From Clostridiales bacterium (lineage in GTDB: Bacteria > Bacillota > Clostridia > Christensenellales > CAG-1252): a DNA stretch of 12,242 bases. A program made the translations under genes and the position numbers. The stretch is taken from the NCBI GenBank assembly GCA_003445835.1, contig DMCI01000098.1, positions 1-12,242 of the forward strand. Reading direction: 5' to 3'. The notes under the pieces were generated by a model. The model was not told the origin of the DNA. It saw only the letters and a list, made by a program, of their open reading frames with translations, and did no database searches. Below are positions 2,497 to 10,816 of the stretch, in pieces; position 1 is the stretch's first letter, and the number at the start of each line of letters is the position of its first letter.

Positions 2497-3746
2497 AAAA
2501 GCTTGTTTTGCTGATTTTGGTTTTTTCGTTGGCGCTTTCCTCCTTGTTGTTTGCGGGGGTGACCGCCGTTGCGGAGACGCCTTCTTCCTACGATTACGCC
2601 GTCGCTTACGCGCAAAATCACGCGAGGCGCGACATTCTTTCGGGCGGGGAAGCCGCCGCGGCAAATACTTTGGCAACCGCTTTGACAAACTTCGGTTATG
2701 CGGTACAAACGCCTGCGTTCCGCTTTTACAGACAGAACGATGTCGGCGCGAAGGTCGCTTACGATTACAAGCACGTCCTCGGCTTTAAAAACAACGGCAA
2801 GGGAAAGTGCGTTTTGATCGGATGCTATTATGGCGGATATGAGCCGCAAGACAGTTACGGTGTGGGAAACGGCGGGACCGTGGCGCTTTCGGTCGGGACT
2901 CTTCTTTCTGTTGCACGTTTGCTTTCCGCCGTGACGACGGAGTACGATATCGTCATCGCGTTTTGGGGCGGCATCGAGGCTTTCGGAGATTTCCGTGTCA
3001 AGGATTGCGGCGTTGAAAATGACAAAATCGCTCTATACGTCAATCTTGACGGCGTCGGGGTGGGTGACCGCGACTATCTGTATGCCGACGACGTGCCTCG
3101 CGCGCAGGAAAAATATTTCCGCAACGTGATAAAAAAAGTCGGCGCGGATATTTCCGCTCCTCCCGTTTACAAGAAACAAGTGGCGCTCTCTTACGGAGAG
3201 GAAGACGCTTACAGCTATGCGCATTTGGGACTTCTCGGCGTCAACCGCTTCTTTATGGCGGAGGACGTACCTTGCGTGAATTTCGTCGGCGGCGCGTGGG
3301 ATTATGACTGCGGTCTTTATCGTTACAGCCGCAAAGGTGATATCGAAGGGACTTCTCTTGATACGATAGAAAGCATAGACGGCTTCAATGGCGGCGCCGC
3401 AAAAACCGCGGCAAGACTTGACGCCGTTGCTTCCGTTGTCTACCACGGCGTGACGGGGAAAGACCTTGCGTCCGCCCTTGATAAAGCGCAGGGAGAAATT
3501 TCCGCCGCGGATCTTGACAGTTCGCTCGCCGTGTTGTTGATTTCTGCCATCGGGACGGCGCTTTTGATCGCGTTTTTGATCCTCTTGTACGTCAAACAGG
3601 GAAAAGACAGACGACAGGTGGCTTGGGATCCCGGTTTGAACGGCAGCAAAGACGACCCTTATACGGAATTCCGTGAAACGCAAGACGAGGAGAGCGAGGA
3701 ACCGAAGCCTTCCGATGACGACGATGACGACGTTTTCCGTTTTTAA
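2493..3746 (+). CDS. Membrane-anchored, secreted M28-like (Zn-peptidase fold) protein with degenerate active site
   Basis: 417 residues with a signal peptide (MKK plus a hydrophobic core, likely cut after AVA at 27), an extracellular domain, a transmembrane helix at about 345-367, and a cytoplasmic tail ending in an acidic run (six Asp then VFRF). That makes it a type I membrane protein. The ectodomain follows the order of the M28 aminopeptidase fold: VLIGCYYGG (107-115) where active enzymes have the first zinc His and its Asp; GVGNGGT (123-129) in place of GADDNASG; a helix; FWGGIEAFG (157-165) in place of the Glu-Glu motif; and YVNLDGVG (182-189) matching NLDxxG. Of the usual ligands only D186 and perhaps E162 remain. 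A C-terminal metal His is not evident. It may be an inactive peptidase homologue or bind something else. The start overlaps the upstream membrane-protein gene. Confidence 0.7.
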   Translation: MKKLVLLILVFSLALSSLLFAGVTAVAETPSSYDYAVAYAQNHARRDILSGGEAAAANTLATALTNFGYAVQTPAFRFYRQNDVGAKVAYDYKHVLGFKNNGKGKCVLIGCYYGGYEPQDSYGVGNGGTVALSVGTLLSVARLLSAVTTEYDIVIAFWGGIEAFGDFRVKDCGVENDKIALYVNLDGVGVGDRDYLYADDVPRAQEKYFRNVIKKVGADISAPPVYKKQVALSYGEEDAYSYAHLGLLGVNRFFMAEDVPCVNFVGGAWDYDCGLYRYSRKGDIEGTSLDTIESIDGFNGGAAKTAARLDAVASVVYHGVTGKDLASALDKAQGEISAADLDSSLAVLLISAIGTALLIAFLILLYVKQGKDRRQVAWDPGLNGSKDDPYTEFRETQDEESEEPKPSDDDDDDVFRF

Positions 3747-3795
3747 CGGCGGTTAACGAGTTTTTACTTCGTTTCGCTTTATTTTTTTCGCGCGG

Positions 3796-3806
3796 TATAT
3801 TATACT
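3796..3806 (+). promoter_or_regulatory. Likely -10 region for the cdaA operon
   Basis: The 88-base gap between the M28-like gene and cdaA holds an AT-rich stretch with overlapping -10 candidates, best TATACT at 3801-3806 with TATATT at 3796-3801 as alternative. The -35 match is weak (TTTATT at 3778-3783, 17-base spacing). A start near 3813 would leave a leader of about 20 bases carrying AAGAGGTG at 3821-3828. The position between two genes, after the overlapping starts have ended, supports a new transcription unit here. Confidence 0.45.
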
Positions 3807-3834
3807 TGAAATAGTTTATTAAGAGGTGACGCGT

Positions 3835-4695
3835 ATGGACGTTTTGATGAACTATTTCGAAAAAGGTACCTTCGGATGGCTTTCCATTGTGGACGCGGTG
3901 TTCGTTTTGATCTTTTTGATCGCGGTCATGGTGTTTTTCTTTCGCAAAAAGAATTATCGCGTGGGCTTGTTTTTCGTGCTGTTCACCTTGCTCTTCATCG
4001 GGCTGGACGTGGTGATCGCCGTCTTTAAGATCCGCTCCATCTTCTTTGCAAGGGAGATCATGCGCTTCCTTGCCGTGATGTTTATCGCCGCAAGCGCGGT
4101 CGTTTACCAATCCGATTTGAAACTTTTATTTGCCAAGTTCGGCGGGCAGGCGGAAGAAAACGTCTACGCCAAACTGCACAACGGTCGTGACGAGGATGAC
4201 CTTCGTTACGCTTCCGGGGAGATCGTCAAGGCGTGCCAAAACCTTTCCAAAAACAACATCGGCGCTTTGATCGTCGTTTGTCCCACCATCATTTCTTCCA
4301 ATATGTTGGATACGGGTATCCGCCTAAACGGCGCTTTGTCCGCCCCTCTTCTGGAAAGCATCTTCAATCCGCATTCCCCTCTGCACGACGGCGCCGTCAT
4401 CATCAAAAACAACGTCGTTCTTGCGGCGGGATGCTTCCTCCCCCTCTCGCAAAACCCCTCTATCAGCAAGGATCTCGGCACTCGTCACCGCGCTGCGATC
4501 GGCATCACGGAGGAGACCGACGTTTTGACCATCGTCGTCAGTGAGGAGACGGGTATCATCAGTTTGGTGCAAAACGGCGATATCAAACGCTACATCACCG
4601 GCGAAAAACTTATGGACGCTTTGGACGCCGCCTTTGGCATCACCGACCTCAGCCGCAGAAATTCCAGACAATTCGGGAGGAACACCAAAAGATGA
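3835..4695 (+). CDS. cdaA: Diadenylate cyclase CdaA (c-di-AMP synthase)
   Basis: A 286-residue membrane enzyme that condenses two ATP into cyclic di-AMP, the second messenger controlling potassium and osmotic balance and cell-wall homeostasis in Bacillota. Three N-terminal membrane helices lie at about 17-36, 43-63 and 70-89, followed by the cytoplasmic DAC (DisA_N) domain. Both catalytic motifs are intact: LHDGA (residues 183-187) and GTRHRAA (215-221). IVVSEETGIIS follows as usual. ATG 3835 is chosen because AAGAGGTG at 3821-3828 sits 6 bases before it; the in-frame GTG at 3826 lies inside that ribosome binding site. Downstream there is no cdaR (YbbR repeats) or glmM, which commonly follow. 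Instead a DUF1015 gene starts overlapping its stop (ATGATGA). Confidence 0.93.
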   Translation: MDVLMNYFEKGTFGWLSIVDAVFVLIFLIAVMVFFFRKKNYRVGLFFVLFTLLFIGLDVVIAVFKIRSIFFAREIMRFLAVMFIAASAVVYQSDLKLLFAKFGGQAEENVYAKLHNGRDEDDLRYASGEIVKACQNLSKNNIGALIVVCPTIISSNMLDTGIRLNGALSAPLLESIFNPHSPLHDGAVIIKNNVVLAAGCFLPLSQNPSISKDLGTRHRAAIGITEETDVLTIVVSEETGIISLVQNGDIKRYITGEKLMDALDAAFGITDLSRRNSRQFGRNTKR

Positions 4696-5936
4696 TGAAA
4701 GACATCGTAAAAATACCTCGCGTTCTTTTACCCAACGCAGACGTTGATCTCAAAAAGTGGGCGGTCATCGCTTGCGACCAGTTTACCTCGCAGGGGCAAT
4801 ACTGGCAGCAACTCAAAGACTACTGCGGCGACGTTTCCGCGCTCAACATCATCTTCCCCGAGTACTATCTTGAAAAGGGCAATATGGAGGAGAGAATCCA
4901 AAGCATCAACTCCTATATGCAAAAGTATCTTTCGGAAGGGGTCTTCCGTGAGATCGACGGCGTTATCTTGACCGAAAGGATCACTTCTTACGGGCACAAG
5001 CGCACCGGCATCCTGCTTGCGCTAGATCTTGAACAATACGATTTCACGACGGGCAAACTTCCCATCCGCGCCACCGAAGCGACGGTCAAGGAAAGACTTC
5101 CCGTCCGTTTGCGCATCCGTGAAAACGCGCTGTTGGAACTGCCGCACGTTTTGATCTTGATCGACGACGAGGATAAGACGGTCGTTGAGCGCGCTCGCGC
5201 AAGCGTCACCGAGGACGACCTCTTATATTCGACCGAACTCAATATGAAAGGCGGCTCCGTCAAAGGCTATCTTTTGAAGGACCCGCAACCTATTCTGGAC
5301 GCTTTGCTGGCGCTTGGCAGTGAGGAACGTATGGTGAAGCGCTACGGCGACAAGACGCCTTTCCTCTTTGCCGTCGGTGACGGCAACCATTCCGTTGCTA
5401 CCGCAAAACTTTTGTGGGAGAGGATCAAACCCAGCCTGACCGAAAGCGAAAGGGAAGCGCATCCCGCGCGTTACGTCCTTGCGGAAGTGGGCAACCTCTA
5501 CGACGACGATCTCGTCTTCGAGGCGATCCACCGCGTGATCTTCGGCGCGGGCAAGGATTTTATCAAGGAAATGTCCGATGCTCTTTCCGGCGAAGGTCAC
5601 GTTTCCTTGCTTTACCGCGGTGAAATGTACGGCGTTTCCGTCCCGCGCGTCGCGGCGGAAGCCGTTAAGGCGGTGCAGGAGTTTATCGACAAGTATATCG
5701 CTTCGCACGAGGGCGTCTCGGTGGATTACATCCACGGTGACAAAAACCTTGCGGAAGTGGCGGCGGCTAAGGACGGCGTGGCGATCTTTATGCCCGTGAT
5801 GGAAAAGAGCGATCTGTTCCCTTACGTGGTCAAGCACGGATCTCTCCCGCGCAAGACCTTCTCAATGGGAGAAGCGGAAGAAAAAAGGTATTATTTGGAA
5901 AGTCGTGTCATCATCGACAACGTCAGAAAGGAGTAG
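4692..5936 (+). CDS. DUF1015 family protein
   Basis: A 414-residue soluble protein matching the DUF1015 (COG4198) family over its whole length. Motifs are the N-terminal RVLLP and WAVIACDQFTSQ (about 24-35), RATEATVKERLPVRLRIRENA in the middle, GDGNHSVATAK (about 229-239) and, at the C terminus, LPRKTFSMGEAEEKRYYLE (385-403). The GDGNH and KTFSMGEA motifs suggest a conserved binding or catalytic pocket, but the biochemical function is not established. Family members in Clostridia are often found near serine biosynthesis genes; here it lies between cdaA and aspartate kinase. GGGAGGAA at 4675-4682 is the ribosome binding site. ATG 4692 is preferred over ATG 4695 by spacing (9 bases). It overlaps the cdaA stop and ends 3 bases before lysC. 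Confidence 0.88.
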   Translation: MMKDIVKIPRVLLPNADVDLKKWAVIACDQFTSQGQYWQQLKDYCGDVSALNIIFPEYYLEKGNMEERIQSINSYMQKYLSEGVFREIDGVILTERITSYGHKRTGILLALDLEQYDFTTGKLPIRATEATVKERLPVRLRIRENALLELPHVLILIDDEDKTVVERARASVTEDDLLYSTELNMKGGSVKGYLLKDPQPILDALLALGSEERMVKRYGDKTPFLFAVGDGNHSVATAKLLWERIKPSLTESEREAHPARYVLAEVGNLYDDDLVFEAIHRVIFGAGKDFIKEMSDALSGEGHVSLLYRGEMYGVSVPRVAAEAVKAVQEFIDKYIASHEGVSVDYIHGDKNLAEVAAAKDGVAIFMPVMEKSDLFPYVVKHGSLPRKTFSMGEAEEKRYYLESRVIIDNVRKE

Positions 5937-7253: not shown

Positions 7254-7262
7254 GAGGTGTTT

Positions 7263-8219
7263 ATGATTTATGCAGGCGTAGACGTCGGAGGCATGAGCAT
7301 CAAGTGCTGCCTTGCGACGGAAGAGGGCAAGATCCTCGTAAAAGACAGTTTTGTTACCAAAGAAGCGATCACCTGCGCCGAAATGGCGTCTTCCACCGCG
7401 TCTTTCATCAAGTCGCTTGCCGCAAAAGCGGGCGTGGATGAAAAAGAGATCGCGGCGGTGGGGATGGGCACTCCCGGCACCGTGGACGGCAAAAAGGGCG
7501 TGATCGTTTACTCCAACAACATCAAGATGGAAAACGCGCCCATCGTTAAGGAAATGGAAAAGCACTTTGCTTGCCCCGTATACGTGGGCAACGACGCCAA
7601 TGCGGCTGCCCTCGGGGAAGCGGTCTTCGGCGCGGCAAAAGGGCTTTCGGACGTCGTACTCGTTACGCTTGGCACCGGTGTCGGCACCGGTATCATCGCA
7701 AACGGCAAGATGATCACCGGCAAAGGCGGCGCGGGCGCGGAAGGCGGCCACATCGTGATCAAAATGAAAGGTGAACCTTGCTCCTGCGGCAACCGCGGTT
7801 GCTTTGAAGCGTACGCTTCCGCATCCGCTCTTCTTCGTCAAACCGAAGCGGCGGTCAAACGCCATCCCGACAGCTTGCTTGCTTCCCTGTGGCAAAAAAA
7901 CGGCAGAAGCGGCATCGTTCCTTTCGACGCGGCAAAGGCGGGGGACAAAGCGGGACTCAAAGTTATCCGTGATTACGTCACCTACGTGGCGATGGGGCTT
8001 TCGGGGCTCGTCAACGTGTTCCGTCCCGACGTGGTCTTGATCGGCGGCGGCATCAGCAATCAAGGCGATTACTTCATCAAAAAGGTTTCGCGCAAGCTCA
8101 ATTCCATCGTGTACGGTGCGGGCGTGAACGGTAGGGTGAAAGTAAAAACGGCTGAACTTAAAAACGACGCCGGTCTGTTAGGTGCGGTGGCGCTTGCGGT
8201 CAGAGGAACCAACGCATAA
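7263..8219 (+). CDS. glcK: ROK-family glucokinase
   Basis: 318 residues, close to the usual size of Gram-positive ROK glucokinases, which phosphorylate glucose with ATP to glucose 6-phosphate. Visible motifs are the N-terminal phosphate-binding DVGGMSIK (7-14); GNDANAAALGE with the likely catalytic base D111; LGTGVGTGI; and the ROK zinc site made of H163 (GGHIV) with CSCGNRGCFE (173-182), Cys 173, 175 and 180. ATG 7263 is chosen because GAGGTG at 7254-7259 is its ribosome binding site; an in-frame GTG at 7257 lies within that site. It follows lysC by 9 bases and is the last gene of the cdaA unit, closed by the terminator at 8266-8306. Other ROK sugar kinases (for example fructokinase) are possible, but glucokinase fits best. 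Confidence 0.9.
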   Translation: MIYAGVDVGGMSIKCCLATEEGKILVKDSFVTKEAITCAEMASSTASFIKSLAAKAGVDEKEIAAVGMGTPGTVDGKKGVIVYSNNIKMENAPIVKEMEKHFACPVYVGNDANAAALGEAVFGAAKGLSDVVLVTLGTGVGTGIIANGKMITGKGGAGAEGGHIVIKMKGEPCSCGNRGCFEAYASASALLRQTEAAVKRHPDSLLASLWQKNGRSGIVPFDAAKAGDKAGLKVIRDYVTYVAMGLSGLVNVFRPDVVLIGGGISNQGDYFIKKVSRKLNSIVYGAGVNGRVKVKTAELKNDAGLLGAVALAVRGTNA

Positions 8220-8265: not shown

Positions 8266-8306
8266 GGTGCAGTTACGTACAAGGAGTACGCGCCTGCACC
8301 TTTTTT
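8266..8306 (+). terminator. Strong intrinsic terminator after glcK (possibly bidirectional)
   Basis: GGTGCAG (8266-8272) pairs with CTGCACC (8294-8300). Inside it CGTAC (8276-8280) pairs with GTACG (8286-8290) around the loop AAGGA. TTTTTT follows at 8301-8306. Just before the stem is CAAAAAC, so the opposite strand also reads hairpin then GTTTTTG and may stop transcription leaving the IS110 transposase. The rest of the gap from glcK to this hairpin (8220-8265) shows only a weak, bulged hairpin. Confidence 0.85.
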
Positions 8307-8310
8307 CATC

Positions 8311-8430
8311 GAGCCTTGTCTAAGCGTCACTCTCCGCGCTCGCTTTTGAATGGACGCTTGTTTTTTAAAAAGCGGTCGAAAAAGCAAGGGATCGTTGAAA
8401 GCATCAAGATCACGGGGTCAAGCAAGGCTC
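8311..8430. repeat. 8-bp inverted repeat in the IS110 right-end region
   Basis: GAGCCTTG (8311-8318) is the exact inverse complement of CAAGGCTC (8423-8430), 104 bases apart, the inner copy lying in the last codons of the transposase. It could be a structural or recognition element of the right end, but eight bases can also match by chance. Confidence 0.3.
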
Positions 8431-8440
8431 CGTGATTTTT
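8409..8440 (+). terminator. Inward-facing hairpin terminator over the 3' end of the transposase gene
   Basis: ATCACGG (8409-8415) pairs with CCGTGAT (8430-8436), with a 14-base loop, followed on the + strand by a T-run to 8440. The T-run is on the right side only for transcription entering the element from the glcK side, antisense to the transposase. The transposase stop codon (8410-8412) lies in the stem. Such hairpins at IS ends can block impinging transcription. Confidence 0.5.
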
Positions 8441-9609
8441 ATCGTTGTCGGGGGCTCGTAAGGTTTTCCGCTGCTTAGGACGGCGTAGAGGATGCGCACC
8501 ATCTTTTTCATTCCGTGCGATAAAGCGACGAAGAAGTGCTTGCCCGAGGCGCGCTTTTTGTCGACGTAGGCGCGCATTACGGGGTCGGTGACGTAGGCGG
8601 ATTTGGTTGCCTGAAAGACGGCGTTTCGTAGGTATTTGGAACCCTTTTTCACCATCGACGTGCGGGTCAATACGAATTTGCCCGATTGGTAGATCGTCGG
8701 CTCGCACCCCACGAAGGCAAGCAGTTTTGCGTCGTTCGGAAAGTTTTTTACGTTTCCGATCTCGGCAAGGATGGTGGCGCCGGTGTTGACGCCTATCCCC
8801 GGGATGGTGAGGATCGGGCTTTTGAGTTTGTCCAGGATCGCGCGGAGTTTTTCTTCCAAGAGCGACAATTCGTCTTCCAAAAAGGAGATCGTTTTGGCAA
8901 GGCGCTTGAGTTCGTAGGCGTCTCCCGCATTGCTTGATCCGATGCTCGTTGCCGCCGCTTGGATCAGTTCGTCCGCTCGCTTGCCGTATCTGCCGTAGGA
9001 CAGTTTGTCCAAGTTTTTGACAAGCCGATCTTTGTCCGCCGACAAAACTTCCCGCGGGGAGGAGTAGCGTCCGATCAGCTCGATCGCGCTGCGGTAGTTG
9101 ACGTTGAAGTGCTTTTCAAATTCCGGAAAGACCAGTTGCAAAACACGTCGGTAGCGGTTTTTGGTGACCTGCATCGTCTTTTGCACGCGGTAACGGTAGC
9201 GGGTGAGAGACCGCAAGACGCGCACGTCGCTTGAAACGTGGCGGCGCTTTTCGATCTCGGTCTCCGCCGTAACTTCGGCGATGTATCTTGCGTCGCTTTT
9301 GTCCGTTTTGGTGTTTCGTAGGGTCTTGGACTTCCTGAACATATTCACCTTAAGAGGGTTGAGGGGCAGGACTGCGTATTTTTGCGTCTTTAAGTGTTCC
9401 AGAATGTTTTGTGAGTAATGCCCCGTGTACTCCAGCCCGATTTTTACTTCCTCTTTTCGCTTTTTGCTTTGTTTGACGAGGCGGTCAAACAACTCGAACC
9501 CCGTTTTGGAGTTTTCAAAAGTGAAGTTATCCACCACGACTTCGCCGTCGTTTCGCATAATGTGGCAGTCGTGCTTGTCCTTTGCAACGTCTATTCCTAC
9601 GTAGATCAT
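8410..9609 (-). CDS. IS110-family transposase (DEDD recombinase), intact
   Basis: 399 residues, full length. The N-terminal RuvC-like domain carries the DEDD tetrad: D7 in VGIDVAKDKH, E60 in GLEYTGHY, and D103 and D106 in TDKSDARYIA. A central helical and coiled-coil region follows (about 190-265, rich in Lys, Glu and Leu). The C-terminal Tnp domain has the helix-hairpin-helix-like LTIPGIGVNTGATILAEIG (267-285) and GCEPTIYQSGKF, where S309 matches the catalytic serine of the family. These enzymes move DNA as circular intermediates guided by a bridge RNA encoded in the element. ATG 9609 is chosen for GAGGAGGA immediately upstream and because MIYVGIDVAK is the normal N terminus. An in-frame ATG at 9651 would add 14 residues read from a hairpin and is less likely. 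No frameshift or internal stop, so it may be active. Confidence 0.93.
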   Translation of the reverse strand: MIYVGIDVAKDKHDCHIMRNDGEVVVDNFTFENSKTGFELFDRLVKQSKKRKEEVKIGLEYTGHYSQNILEHLKTQKYAVLPLNPLKVNMFRKSKTLRNTKTDKSDARYIAEVTAETEIEKRRHVSSDVRVLRSLTRYRYRVQKTMQVTKNRYRRVLQLVFPEFEKHFNVNYRSAIELIGRYSSPREVLSADKDRLVKNLDKLSYGRYGKRADELIQAAATSIGSSNAGDAYELKRLAKTISFLEDELSLLEEKLRAILDKLKSPILTIPGIGVNTGATILAEIGNVKNFPNDAKLLAFVGCEPTIYQSGKFVLTRTSMVKKGSKYLRNAVFQATKSAYVTDPVMRAYVDKKRASGKHFFVALSHGMKKMVRILYAVLSSGKPYEPPTTIKITEPCLTP

Positions 9610-9628: not shown

Positions 9629-9651
9629 AAAAAATGCGGCAAAAGCCGCAT
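9629..9651 (-). terminator. Hairpin plus T-run in the transposase leader
   Basis: Read on the - strand, ATGCGGC (9651-9645) and GCCGCAT (9640-9634) form a perfect 7-bp stem with a TTTT loop, followed by T residues to 9629. This is a compact intrinsic terminator only 20 bases before the transposase start. It would end a short leader RNA, or attenuate transposase transcription. Confidence 0.65.
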
Positions 9652-9723
9652 ACGCTCCGCTCCGTATCCTCCTCGTAAAAACGACCGGCGTTAGGTATTG
9701 AAAAAACCGGAATCGCGGCGCGC
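9629..9723 (-). ncRNA. Candidate IS110 bridge RNA
   Basis: A - strand transcript of about 95 nt is predicted between the extended -10 at 9730-9738 and the hairpin/T-run at 9629-9651. It is rich in possible stem-loops: CCGG at 9710-9707 with CCGG at 9688-9685, TCGT-TTTT-ACGA around 9672-9683, ATACG with CGTAT around 9650-9667, and the terminal ATGCGGC hairpin. IS110-subgroup elements are known to encode a bridge RNA in the non-coding segment before the transposase, with loops that pair to donor and target DNA. Position, orientation and size (at the short end) fit. I could not confirm guide loops, because the exact element ends and target are unknown. Confidence 0.4.
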
Positions 9724-9729
9724 AATCTC

Positions 9730-9738
9730 ATTATATCA
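9730..9738 (-). promoter_or_regulatory. Extended -10 promoter for the IS110 leader/transposase
   Basis: On the - strand TGA-TATAAT (9738 to 9730) is a perfect extended -10 (TGn-TATAAT), predicting a start near 9723. The expected -35 position about 17 bases upstream holds CGTTCT, a poor match to TTGACA. A 5-bp GC hairpin (9745-9749 with 9757-9761) lies between. A missing -35 next to a perfect -10 is what is expected if the -35 is supplied by the other element end in the circular form. Confidence 0.6.
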
Positions 9739-9784
9739 TATTTTGCGCGAGAAGAACGCGCGCGGGCGGAATTATGAGCAGTTT

Positions 9785-9814
9785 CTTTACTTTATTTGAT
9801 AAACGTGGTATAAT
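9785..9814 (+). promoter_or_regulatory. Promoter of the MDR-like gene
   Basis: TTTACT (9786-9791) and TATAAT (9809-9814) are separated by 17 bases, and TGG precedes the -10, giving an extended -10. Transcription should start near 9821, leaving a leader of about 20 bases with AGGAAGGTG before ATG 9842. This is the best host promoter in the window. Confidence 0.8.
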
Positions 9815-9841: not shown

Positions 9842-10816
9842 ATGAAAGTTTGGAAAATTGTGGGGCCCAAGACGCTTTCGATGGAAGAAGTCCAAGGCGA
9901 TCTGCTCCCCGGATACGTAAAAGTTAAGGTGACCAAGCTGGGGCTTACCAGCGCGGATATCGCCGTTTACGAAGGTCAGACCGACGTTTCTCTCCCCATC
10001 GTTCCGGGGCGTATCGCAACGGCGGTCATCAGTGAAGTCAACGAGGGCAGCAACTTCCGCAAAGGGGAACGCGTGCTTCTTTCTCCCTATATGAAGGATG
10101 AGAAGGGCAGGCTTTTCACTCGTGGGTTGGATATGGACGGATATCTTGCCGATTACGTCGTTTTGCCCGAGAGCGCGGTCTACGCTTTGCCCGAAAGCAT
10201 CACCGAAGATATGGGCGTCTTTGCCGAGTATATCAGCATCGCGGCGGGGCTTATGGACAAGCTTGACCTAAAGCACGAGCAGTACGTGGCGATCCTCGGC
10301 GCCAACGCGTTGGGGCTTATTTTCGCGCAACTTGCCATTTACTACCAGGCGATCCCCATCATCATCGACCGTTCGGAAAAGAAGCTTGAGGAAGCGGCGT
10401 CCTTCGGCGTGTACTACCGCATCAACTCGTCCAAGCAGGACGCGGCGCGCAGGATCCGTCAGATCACTTGCGGCAAGATGGCGGACTGCACCGTCTTTGA
10501 GTGTCGTTCCGCTCAGCAACCGCAATTGGCGTTTTCGCTTACGGCGGAAGGCGGCAAGGTGGGCATCGTCGGTTACGACAGCTTCGTCAGTAAGCTCAAC
10601 GCGGATATCTCCGCCATCATGGGCAGGCAACTTTCCGTTATCGGCATCAACAACGGCGCCGCGGATATGAATTCCGCCATCAACCTCCTTGCCAACGAGG
10701 TCGTGCGCGTGGATAACATTGCGGATAAGACGGTGGACTTTTTGGCAGCGCCAAGTGCGTTTACCGAGTCGATAGACAGTGAAAACAATTATCTGAAAAT
10801 TCTGATCAAGTGCTAA
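9842..10816 (+). CDS. MDR-superfamily (alcohol dehydrogenase-like) protein without canonical zinc ligands
   Basis: 324 residues with medium-chain dehydrogenase/reductase architecture: an N-terminal GroES-like domain (about 1-125) and a Rossmann domain (about 145-270). Aligned by eye to zinc alcohol dehydrogenases, the first ligand Cys of GICGSD is T36 in GLTSADI, and the GHE motif is P55-G56-R57-I58, so the catalytic zinc His is Arg. The four-Cys structural zinc loop is also absent. The nucleotide-binding GxGxxG is GANALG (153-158), lacking the second glycine, but an acidic residue follows the second strand (IIIDRSEKK). It may be a zinc-independent reductase like quinone oxidoreductases, or a non-catalytic homologue. 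The substrate cannot be inferred. It stands alone with its own promoter and shares a terminator with the convergent lipoprotein gene. Confidence 0.8.
   Translation: MKVWKIVGPKTLSMEEVQGDLLPGYVKVKVTKLGLTSADIAVYEGQTDVSLPIVPGRIATAVISEVNEGSNFRKGERVLLSPYMKDEKGRLFTRGLDMDGYLADYVVLPESAVYALPESITEDMGVFAEYISIAAGLMDKLDLKHEQYVAILGANALGLIFAQLAIYYQAIPIIIDRSEKKLEEAASFGVYYRINSSKQDAARRIRQITCGKMADCTVFECRSAQQPQLAFSLTAEGGKVGIVGYDSFVSKLNADISAIMGRQLSVIGINNGAADMNSAINLLANEVVRVDNIADKTVDFLAAPSAFTESIDSENNYLKILIKC

Follow-up and report, generated by a model that had tools for sequence, protein, structure and literature searches.

Introduction

The window examined here, a 12,242-nucleotide stretch of DNA from a Clostridiales bacterium (GCA_003445835.1, contig DMCI01000098.1), raises the question of what an IS110-type recombinase gene with a short, self-terminating leader does in its host. 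An initial annotation, made from the sequence of the window, had taken the leader to be the compact bridge RNA of an intact and possibly active IS110 element. We compared the locus with 10 gene-bearing genomes of one family, which together with the window form the clade of 11 members discussed below, and with nine more distant relatives. The features of the locus are as follows.

7257..8219, + strand: neighboring ROK family gene (domain match)
8410..9609, - strand: IS110-type DEDD recombinase gene, 399 aa, PF01548 and PF02371 (domain matches; catalytic residues)
9629..9723, - strand: predicted guide RNA of about 95 nt, from the predicted start to the end of the T-run (comparison, alignment, covariance model)
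9629..9651, - strand: intrinsic terminator, 7-bp stem (5 GC pairs) and T-run, about 20 nt before the ATG at 9609
9652..9659, - strand: P1 basal stem, 3' arm (alignment pairing)
9668..9679, - strand: predicted right target guide and core complement, UUUACGAGG-AGG (analogy with the right guide and AGG of relatives)
9680..9692, - strand: P3 apical hairpin AACG-CCGGU-CGUU (95.5% of cells paired, little variation)
9693..9703, - strand: predicted left target guide and core, UUUCAAUA-CCU (same position as the left guide and CCU of mobile relatives)
9716..9723, - strand: P1 basal stem, 5' arm (pairs with 9659-9652; both sides changed in 4 of 8 pairs)
9730..9738, - strand: extended -10 promoter element TGATATAAT (sequence comparison)
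9786..9814, + strand: promoter of the neighboring dehydrogenase gene (promoter scan)
9842..10816, + strand: neighboring zinc-type dehydrogenase gene, ADH_N and ADH_zinc_N (domain match)

The recombinase gene and its surroundings

The recombinase matched both Pfam domains (PF01548, E 2.1e-37; PF02371, E 1.2e-21) and was similar in sequence to the PDB entries of IS621 (8wt6, E 4.6e-27) and ISCro4. The DEDD residues D6, E59, D102 and D105 and the serine of the YxSG motif were kept in all 11 clade members; with the two domains, the tetrad and the serine present, the protein is a member of the IS110 family. The likely start codon is the ATG at 9609. A longer reading frame begins at 9651, and by eye the upstream ATG was absent from G001 and stood in another frame in G004. 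At the far side of the leader, a promoter resembling that at 9786..9814 was seen by eye upstream of the dehydrogenase gene in 14 of 14 regions inspected, three of which are without the IS110 gene.

A REP-like palindrome (GCGCGTACTCCTYGTACGTAACTGC) was also observed at 8267-8300 of the window (+ strand) and in the flanks of L001, L004 and L008. With two mismatches allowed, its core occurred in 20 of 20 family genomes, including genomes without the IS110 gene, and reached 77 matches in G008 (reversed control, 0-5); G016, G017, G019 and G021 had only 1-3 each.

Conservation of the leader RNA

Judged from one sequence, the case for a leader RNA was weak, because the single-sequence fold was moderately better than shuffles (z of -2.0, with 7 of 200 shuffles as good) and the 2.5-kb region held 9 terminator-like sites against 4.2 expected. 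Comparison made the case strong, since the same leader was found between the extended -10 and the terminator in 11 of 11 members, its stem was kept by compensatory changes and none of 500 shuffles matched it. Counted from a start 7 nt past the extended -10 up to where the T-run ends, the leader was 90-103 nt long, in agreement with the structured non-coding leader of about 95 nt described initially. In the alignment, 94.1% of 238 pair cells were standard and both sides had changed in 6 of 22 pairs, values reached by 0 of 500 shuffles in each case; the count of further pair types was ordinary (137 of 500 shuffles). When the structure was slid along the alignment, pairs formed in 30-54% of cells. 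Conserved secondary structure among homologs, which had been set as a test of the proposed RNA, was thus found.

The basal stem had been rebuilt with other letters, as evident from GCGCGCCG/CGGAGCGU with one mismatch in the window and GCGCAUUUU versus AAAAUGCGC in G011. The loop stretches CAAU[A/G]CCUAACGC and GGAGGAUACG were nearly invariant, the synonymous differences of the gene being 0.31-0.79 in the pairs listed; CAAU[A/G]CCU of the left guide and core was present in all 11 members, and the right target guide was 7-9 nt long across the clade. Mean identity over 55 pairs was 0.83 in the leader, compared with 0.59 in the upstream and 0.58 in the downstream flanks and 0.56-0.57 after shuffling. 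A covariance model of the leader found a single strong match (E <1e-15) per gene-bearing genome, 10 in all, and the next-best match in the 20 family genomes had an E of 0.0175 (150 candidates scored per genome). No Rfam family matched 9629-9725, even at E 5.

The promoter and terminator proposed initially were both confirmed. The extended -10 on the - strand at 9738-9730 is TGATATAAT and was present across all 11 members, reading TGNTATAAT in 10 and TGCTATACT in G008, with no conserved -35 seen. A promoter scan that requires two hexamers did not list TGATATAAT and thus pointed to the lack of a good -35. The 7-bp hairpin with its T-run, about 20 bases before the transposase start, was found at 9651-9629. 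Sequence comparison therefore indicates that the leader is a real conserved RNA.

Comparison with mobile relatives

The nine relatives were L007, L114, L461, L095-L097 and the plasmid copies L462-L464. Their proteins were more distant from the recombinase of the window, with an identity of 55% for L007 and 38-43% for L461, L095, L096, L097 and L114. By eye, all nine had two leader loops. A left terminus and donor loop were recognizable in six, and five of these six also had a right end. In particular, the target loop of L461, L095-L097 and L114 read GTGGATTRGT, 8 nt, CCT, the apical hairpin, 7 nt, AGG and CCAC; their donor loop carried AGTTAGAT and CGAGGTTAC, and their left terminus and right end were CCTCGTAT and TTGACTTTTAATAGTTAG (L114 stands outside the motif-score table). 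By hand count, abutting these ends would give a -35 of TTGACT and a -10 of TATAAT at a spacing of 17, the -10 reading TATTAT in L095 and L097. L007 matched the donor loop at 21 of 22 positions and the left terminus at 17 of 23 (shuffles up to 16), and its right end was unclear (12 of 18). The plasmid copies, which come from other lineages and are too diverged to score, matched the motifs poorly, the right end at 14, 14 and 11 of 18.

Two of these relatives deserve a separate description. L461 is positions 22432-23607 of the Faecalibacterium phage Roos, a two-loop IS110 element with both ends whose annotation is that of a hypothetical protein. Its right guide and the flank on that side agreed at 7 of 7 positions. 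L114 (NZ_OY725734.1) is the 1563-base "plasmid 10" of Monoglobus pectinilyticus and consists solely of an IS110 element. It is perhaps a circular intermediate, and has a few extra junction bases compared with the relatives.

The two-loop bridge RNA and its guide register were defined by Durrant et al. (PMC11208160) and Hiraizumi et al. (PMC11208158). In a register chosen beforehand by eye on the same loci that were then scored, the guides of L461 and L095-L097 agreed with their own flanks at 41 of 60 letters. This was the highest score among 24 assignments, the runner-up having 36, and 0 of 20,000 flank shuffles reached it. Taken by itself, L096 was weak, with 4 of 8 letters in one guide and 4 of 7 in the other, and the left flank of another element fitted better. 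The match between loop and target that the initial annotation had proposed as a test was accordingly seen in these four mobile relatives and was not convincing in the clade of the window.

We found the one loop of the clade to be of the target type, with an apical hairpin that CCU immediately precedes and AGG follows. L461, L095-L097 and L114 share with the window the protein family and this core in the same place, and L114 also has an extended -10 ahead of its RNA. L007 belongs to the same protein family but differs in the core of the target loop, although GAGGAUA is common to its target loop and the clade loop. The idea of a short self-terminating RNA upstream of an IS110-type gene was thus supported, with a layout like that of the target half of bridge RNAs.

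Alternatively, the leader could act on the recombinase gene only, as an attenuator or riboregulator built from a terminator and a structured leader and holding no guide. The leader does end in a terminator immediately before the gene, and its internal loop hardly varies, so that covariation between guide and target is invisible within the clade. Such a regulator is nevertheless hard to reconcile with a layout that fits the target loops of related bridge RNAs, down to a core CCU preceding the apical hairpin and an AGG following it. It is also at odds with the way the guides of the relatives match the flanks of their own elements (41 of 60 letters, the top score among 24 assignments, in a register chosen by eye on the same loci), and we regard it as very improbable.

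Element ends and the donor side

In all 11 clade members, no donor loop, left terminus or right end was recognizable. With motifs derived from the relatives, 44 motif tests in the clade yielded no score higher than the top value of the corresponding 100 shuffles, and three scores tied with it; the right-end motif scored 9-12 of 18 compared with shuffle means of 10.2-10.8. No conserved end was present on either side of the gene among the clade members, and identity of the upstream flank was 0.67-0.76 among the near relatives of the window, G001-G004. L461, L095-L097, L114 and L007, unlike the clade, keep the donor loop and the left terminus CCTCGTAT, and all but L007 also keep the right end TTGACTTTTAATAGTTAG. 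The clade ends could have diverged past recognition, as the motifs came from relatives of 38-43% identity and L007, at 55%, is already without a clear right end. A hairpin just upstream of the -10 had a summed stem length of 51, compared with a shuffle mean of 42 and a maximum of 53 (300 shuffles); that it is part of an old left end is suggestive only.

These results do not support an intact IS110 element as claimed initially, with neither terminus in 11 members against a left terminus and donor loop in 6 of 9 relatives and a right end in 5. The term bridge RNA holds for the target-binding half and fails in the strict two-loop sense, since the clade has one loop in 11 of 11 and donor-loop motifs at the shuffle level. 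The RNA is encoded upstream of the gene, as in bridge RNA systems, next to what cannot be recognized as a left end as such. It lies on the IS110 side as expected; with the RNA upstream and no conserved sequence downstream of the gene, the locus does not look like a member of the IS1111 group.

IS621 makes a 177-nt RNA containing both a target loop and a donor loop, from a promoter that is rebuilt at the RE-LE junction (PMC11208160, PMC11208158). IS621 and the window share a DEDD and serine recombinase, an RNA upstream of the gene and a loop composed of left guide, apical hairpin and right guide. In contrast to the 177 nt and two loops of IS621, the window has about 95 nt, one loop, a resident extended -10 and no recognizable donor ends. 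A mobile IS110 element would have ends with a core and a junction-rebuilt promoter, whereas here an extended -10 is already present in the resident copy and no conserved ends were found.

A one-loop RNA alone does not prove lost mobility, because transposition of ISEc21 is supported by a seekRNA of 74 nt, and even 58 nt, with one target-match set, as described by Siddiquee et al. (PMC11187229). As in the window, this RNA is short, holds one pair of guide stretches and lies upstream of the transposase gene; the predicted 90-103 nt of the clade are close to the 70-100 nt given there for seekRNA. According to the same report, ISEc21 moves, its mini-IS has ends of 29 and 16 bp, and a longer form of its RNA exists, whereas the gene of the window is single-copy with no conserved ends and no convincing target halves in the flanks. 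The clade could nevertheless represent an IS110 element that still moves, using a short one-loop seekRNA to recognize target and donor alike through the target halves at its flanks and entering the same site again and again. The left guide was slightly above shuffles against the upstream flank (sum of 85 vs 79.7; 9 of 500 shuffles), related flanks being counted several times, and this marginal excess could come from the shared ancestry of the window and G001-G004. The right guide was unmatched in the downstream flank (278 of 500 shuffles as high), which, together with the absence of conserved ends on both sides, argues against such an element.

Search for target sites

The loop of the window was read in the register of the mobile relatives, because the guides of L461 and L095-L097 match their own flanks. 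In this register, the predicted target site in the window would be TTTCAATA-CCT-CCTCGTA. Small indels distinguish the right half of the predicted site between members, and in an alternative register the guide would stop three letters short of this.

Patterns were searched in the 20 family genomes with the pattern read backwards as control, and no enrichment tied to the gene was found; neither these searches nor those described below identified a target. Four patterns were rejected. With one mismatch, CAATACCTAACG gave 81 matches vs 118 for the control, and its exact form occurred only in the leaders of 9 genomes (one mismatch in the leader of G008). CAATACCTCGTAA, also with one mismatch, gave 48 vs 23, the excess being alike with the gene (20 vs 9) and without it (28 vs 14). 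CAATACCTN{0,2}GTAA gave 8 vs 10. CAATACCTCCTCGTA, with two mismatches, gave 86 vs 59, divided into 30 vs 32 with the gene and 56 vs 27 without.

Around the gene, in regions of 7-19 kb (shuffled patterns run in 4 of 14 regions), the best hits were at the level of shuffled patterns except for one in G001. This site, about 8 kb from the gene, matched 13 of 15 letters where its 20 shuffled patterns reached at most 12; what is seemingly the same site reads differently in G011, G013 and G014, and G013 is without the gene. Two target matches lay in pgi (G011 and G002), which was rejected as the target because the codons of the site vary at the 15 readable of 16 pgi loci and the RNA does not follow. 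The REP-like repeat was rejected as well; its CTCCTCGTA coincides with part of the predicted right half in the clade of the window, but the left half misfits and gene-less genomes carry the repeat. In viral contigs, the window-type 15-mer had 57 matches vs 87 for the reversed control, and a second 15-mer, which is without its own control, had at least 120. No link to the system of the window was seen in the accessible account of megabase inversions in E. lenta (PMC13174815), and no invertible segment or repeated site was found at the recombinase of the window.

Genomes in many contigs often come without rRNA operons and repeats. A target in such sequences would therefore have been missed, as both may be missing from the genomes studied here.

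Distribution and inheritance of the locus

A scan of reference genomes for relatives of the recombinase gave 8 loci, and a protein scan of viral contigs confirmed none. Of the 20 genomes of the G001 family, 10 carried the recombinase, each as a single match at E 1e-60 or better. Across the wider order, matches turned up in 14 of 396 genomes, and identity above 60% was confined to the 10 family members. The ROK gene of the window was found in 18 and the dehydrogenase gene in 19 of the 20 family genomes. ROK, recombinase and dehydrogenase genes stood in that order on one contig, with the recombinase opposed, in 8 of the 10 gene-bearing genomes. In G003, the recombinase adjoins the dehydrogenase; the contig stops before ROK, which is on another contig. 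In G005, the dehydrogenase and recombinase genes are both turned, and the recombinase follows the dehydrogenase on its other side.

The G005 locus (L103; contig 203, 6.9 kb) was observed to have the dehydrogenase and recombinase genes each inverted in place relative to G008 (3228-5571), which may be either a local rearrangement or an assembly fault. Named by eye, the genes between recombinase and dehydrogenase were a metal-transport ATPase-like one and a small putative repressor in G006 and G011, and flavodoxin-like and coiled-coil genes in other genomes; the interval thus takes up genes easily, given the differing inserts.

Recombinase distances followed those of both neighbors, with a Mantel r of 0.90 for the dehydrogenase and 0.73 for ROK (p 0.0005 each, 2000 permutations). 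The three trees agreed on the deep split and on the pairs G003/G004, G005/G008 and G012/G014. In the recombinase tree, G005/G008 fell into one group with the window, G001 and G002, and G003/G004 stood outside it (support 90/93, unstarred), whereas the dehydrogenase tree instead joined G003/G004 to the window, G001 and G002 (support 99/98). The median dN/dS was 0.11 for the recombinase in measurable pairs, dS being above 2 or saturated in 21 of 55, compared with 0.109 for ROK and 0.085 for the dehydrogenase. The gene thus has the marks of a domesticated gene, namely vertical inheritance at one locus, purifying selection and a single copy, with the G005 arrangement and one tree fork as exceptions.

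Recent mobility is unlikely, because the gene is single-copy and seemingly inherited in place. Copies at different sites, as a mobile IS110 would leave, were not seen; all 10 genomes had one copy in the same neighborhood, in many-contig assemblies that can hide repeats. A mobile element with a one-loop RNA would agree with a stop-free protein in 10 of 11 members and with the position of the gene on the other side of the dehydrogenase in G005. It conflicts with the one copy per gene-bearing genome and with recombinase distances that track the neighboring genes, and we consider it unlikely. What was initially described as the compact bridge RNA of a possibly active element appears instead as a target half with a seemingly immobile enzyme.

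The gene could also be an immobilized relic that is stuck and disappearing, its RNA being a leftover bridge RNA. G009, G010 and G013 have the same neighbors, and by eye the same dehydrogenase promoter, without the recombinase gene; their dehydrogenases are 82-88% identical to that of the window, and no convincing remnant of gene or RNA was found in the regions examined. This absence is consistent with loss and also with other histories. One in-frame stop in G006 would agree with decay as well. Decay is, on the other hand, at odds with a dN/dS of 0.11 at near-saturated synonymous distances, with catalytic residues kept in 11 of 11, and with an RNA whose stem is kept through compensatory change and whose loop is nearly invariant; we therefore hold a relic to be improbable. 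The recombinase with the stop is that of L015 (G006 contig 83, 4059-5246), where the leader RNA was well kept.

Discussion

The explanation that we favor, and consider rather probable, is an immobilized, probably domesticated IS110-derived RNA-guided recombinase with a target-only guide RNA under its own promoter. An IS110-derived recombinase would have entered the interval between ROK and dehydrogenase in the ancestor of this clade of rumen Clostridia, a single entry being suggested by the agreement of the trees. The element would then have lost what transposition requires, namely the left terminus, the right end and the donor-binding loop, and by comparison the recombinase appears to have been retained under selection as a single-copy resident gene.

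What follows immobilization in the mechanism is what we infer. Transcription from its own promoter would give a guide RNA of about 95 nt that terminates itself and has a single internal loop, laid out like the target-binding loop of the mobile relatives, and read-through of the terminator may also yield recombinase mRNA. By analogy with IS621 and ISEc21, the protein would bind this guide RNA, and the resulting RNP would recognize the fixed sequence TTTCAATA-CCT-CCTCGTA in the register used here. Speculatively, given a guide with one loop and a conserved active site, the likeliest activity would be recombination or nicking between two copies of one site, leading to inversion or excision, or RNA-guided binding that regulates genes.

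The domestication of guide-bearing transposon proteins is familiar from TldR and other domesticated TnpB, in which a transposon-derived protein is kept with its guide RNA for another function. TldR proteins have lost their nuclease residues, whereas the recombinase of the window keeps its active-site residues. An IS110-type enzyme with a host role is also already known, since the Piv/MooV invertases, which are relatives of IS110 transposases, invert DNA instead of transposing (PMC11208160); no invertible segment or repeated site accompanies the gene of the window. Titles and abstract openings from searches of mainly open-access papers, among them searches on domesticated or vertically inherited IS110, on bridge RNA with phase variation or with the donor-binding loop, and on Piv, showed no IS110 enzyme resident in a genome whose guide RNA serves another purpose, invertases of the Piv type aside. 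The TIGR-Tas paper, for its part, likens bridge RNA to a fusion of two single units (PMC12045711), and in our own comparison the RNA of the window has the shape of one such unit.

The gene has long stayed in one chromosomal neighborhood of these gut bacteria, and an intact enzyme, half a guide and ends that were not found suggest, from the sequences compared, that the bacteria now use it for another purpose. We propose more tentatively, as a possibility that we would not yet bank on, that the recombinase has left transposition by dropping the donor half and both ends, and that its single fixed guide rearranges or regulates a chromosomal or foreign site for the host. If this is true, it would be the IS110 counterpart of what TldR is for TnpB, possibly still catalytic. 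Bridge RNA recombinases are under development as tools, and a clade that keeps the protein and the target loop without the donor side would offer a naturally minimal design whose guide is about 95 nt long. The clade thereby makes the role of an IS110 enzyme without a donor a testable question.
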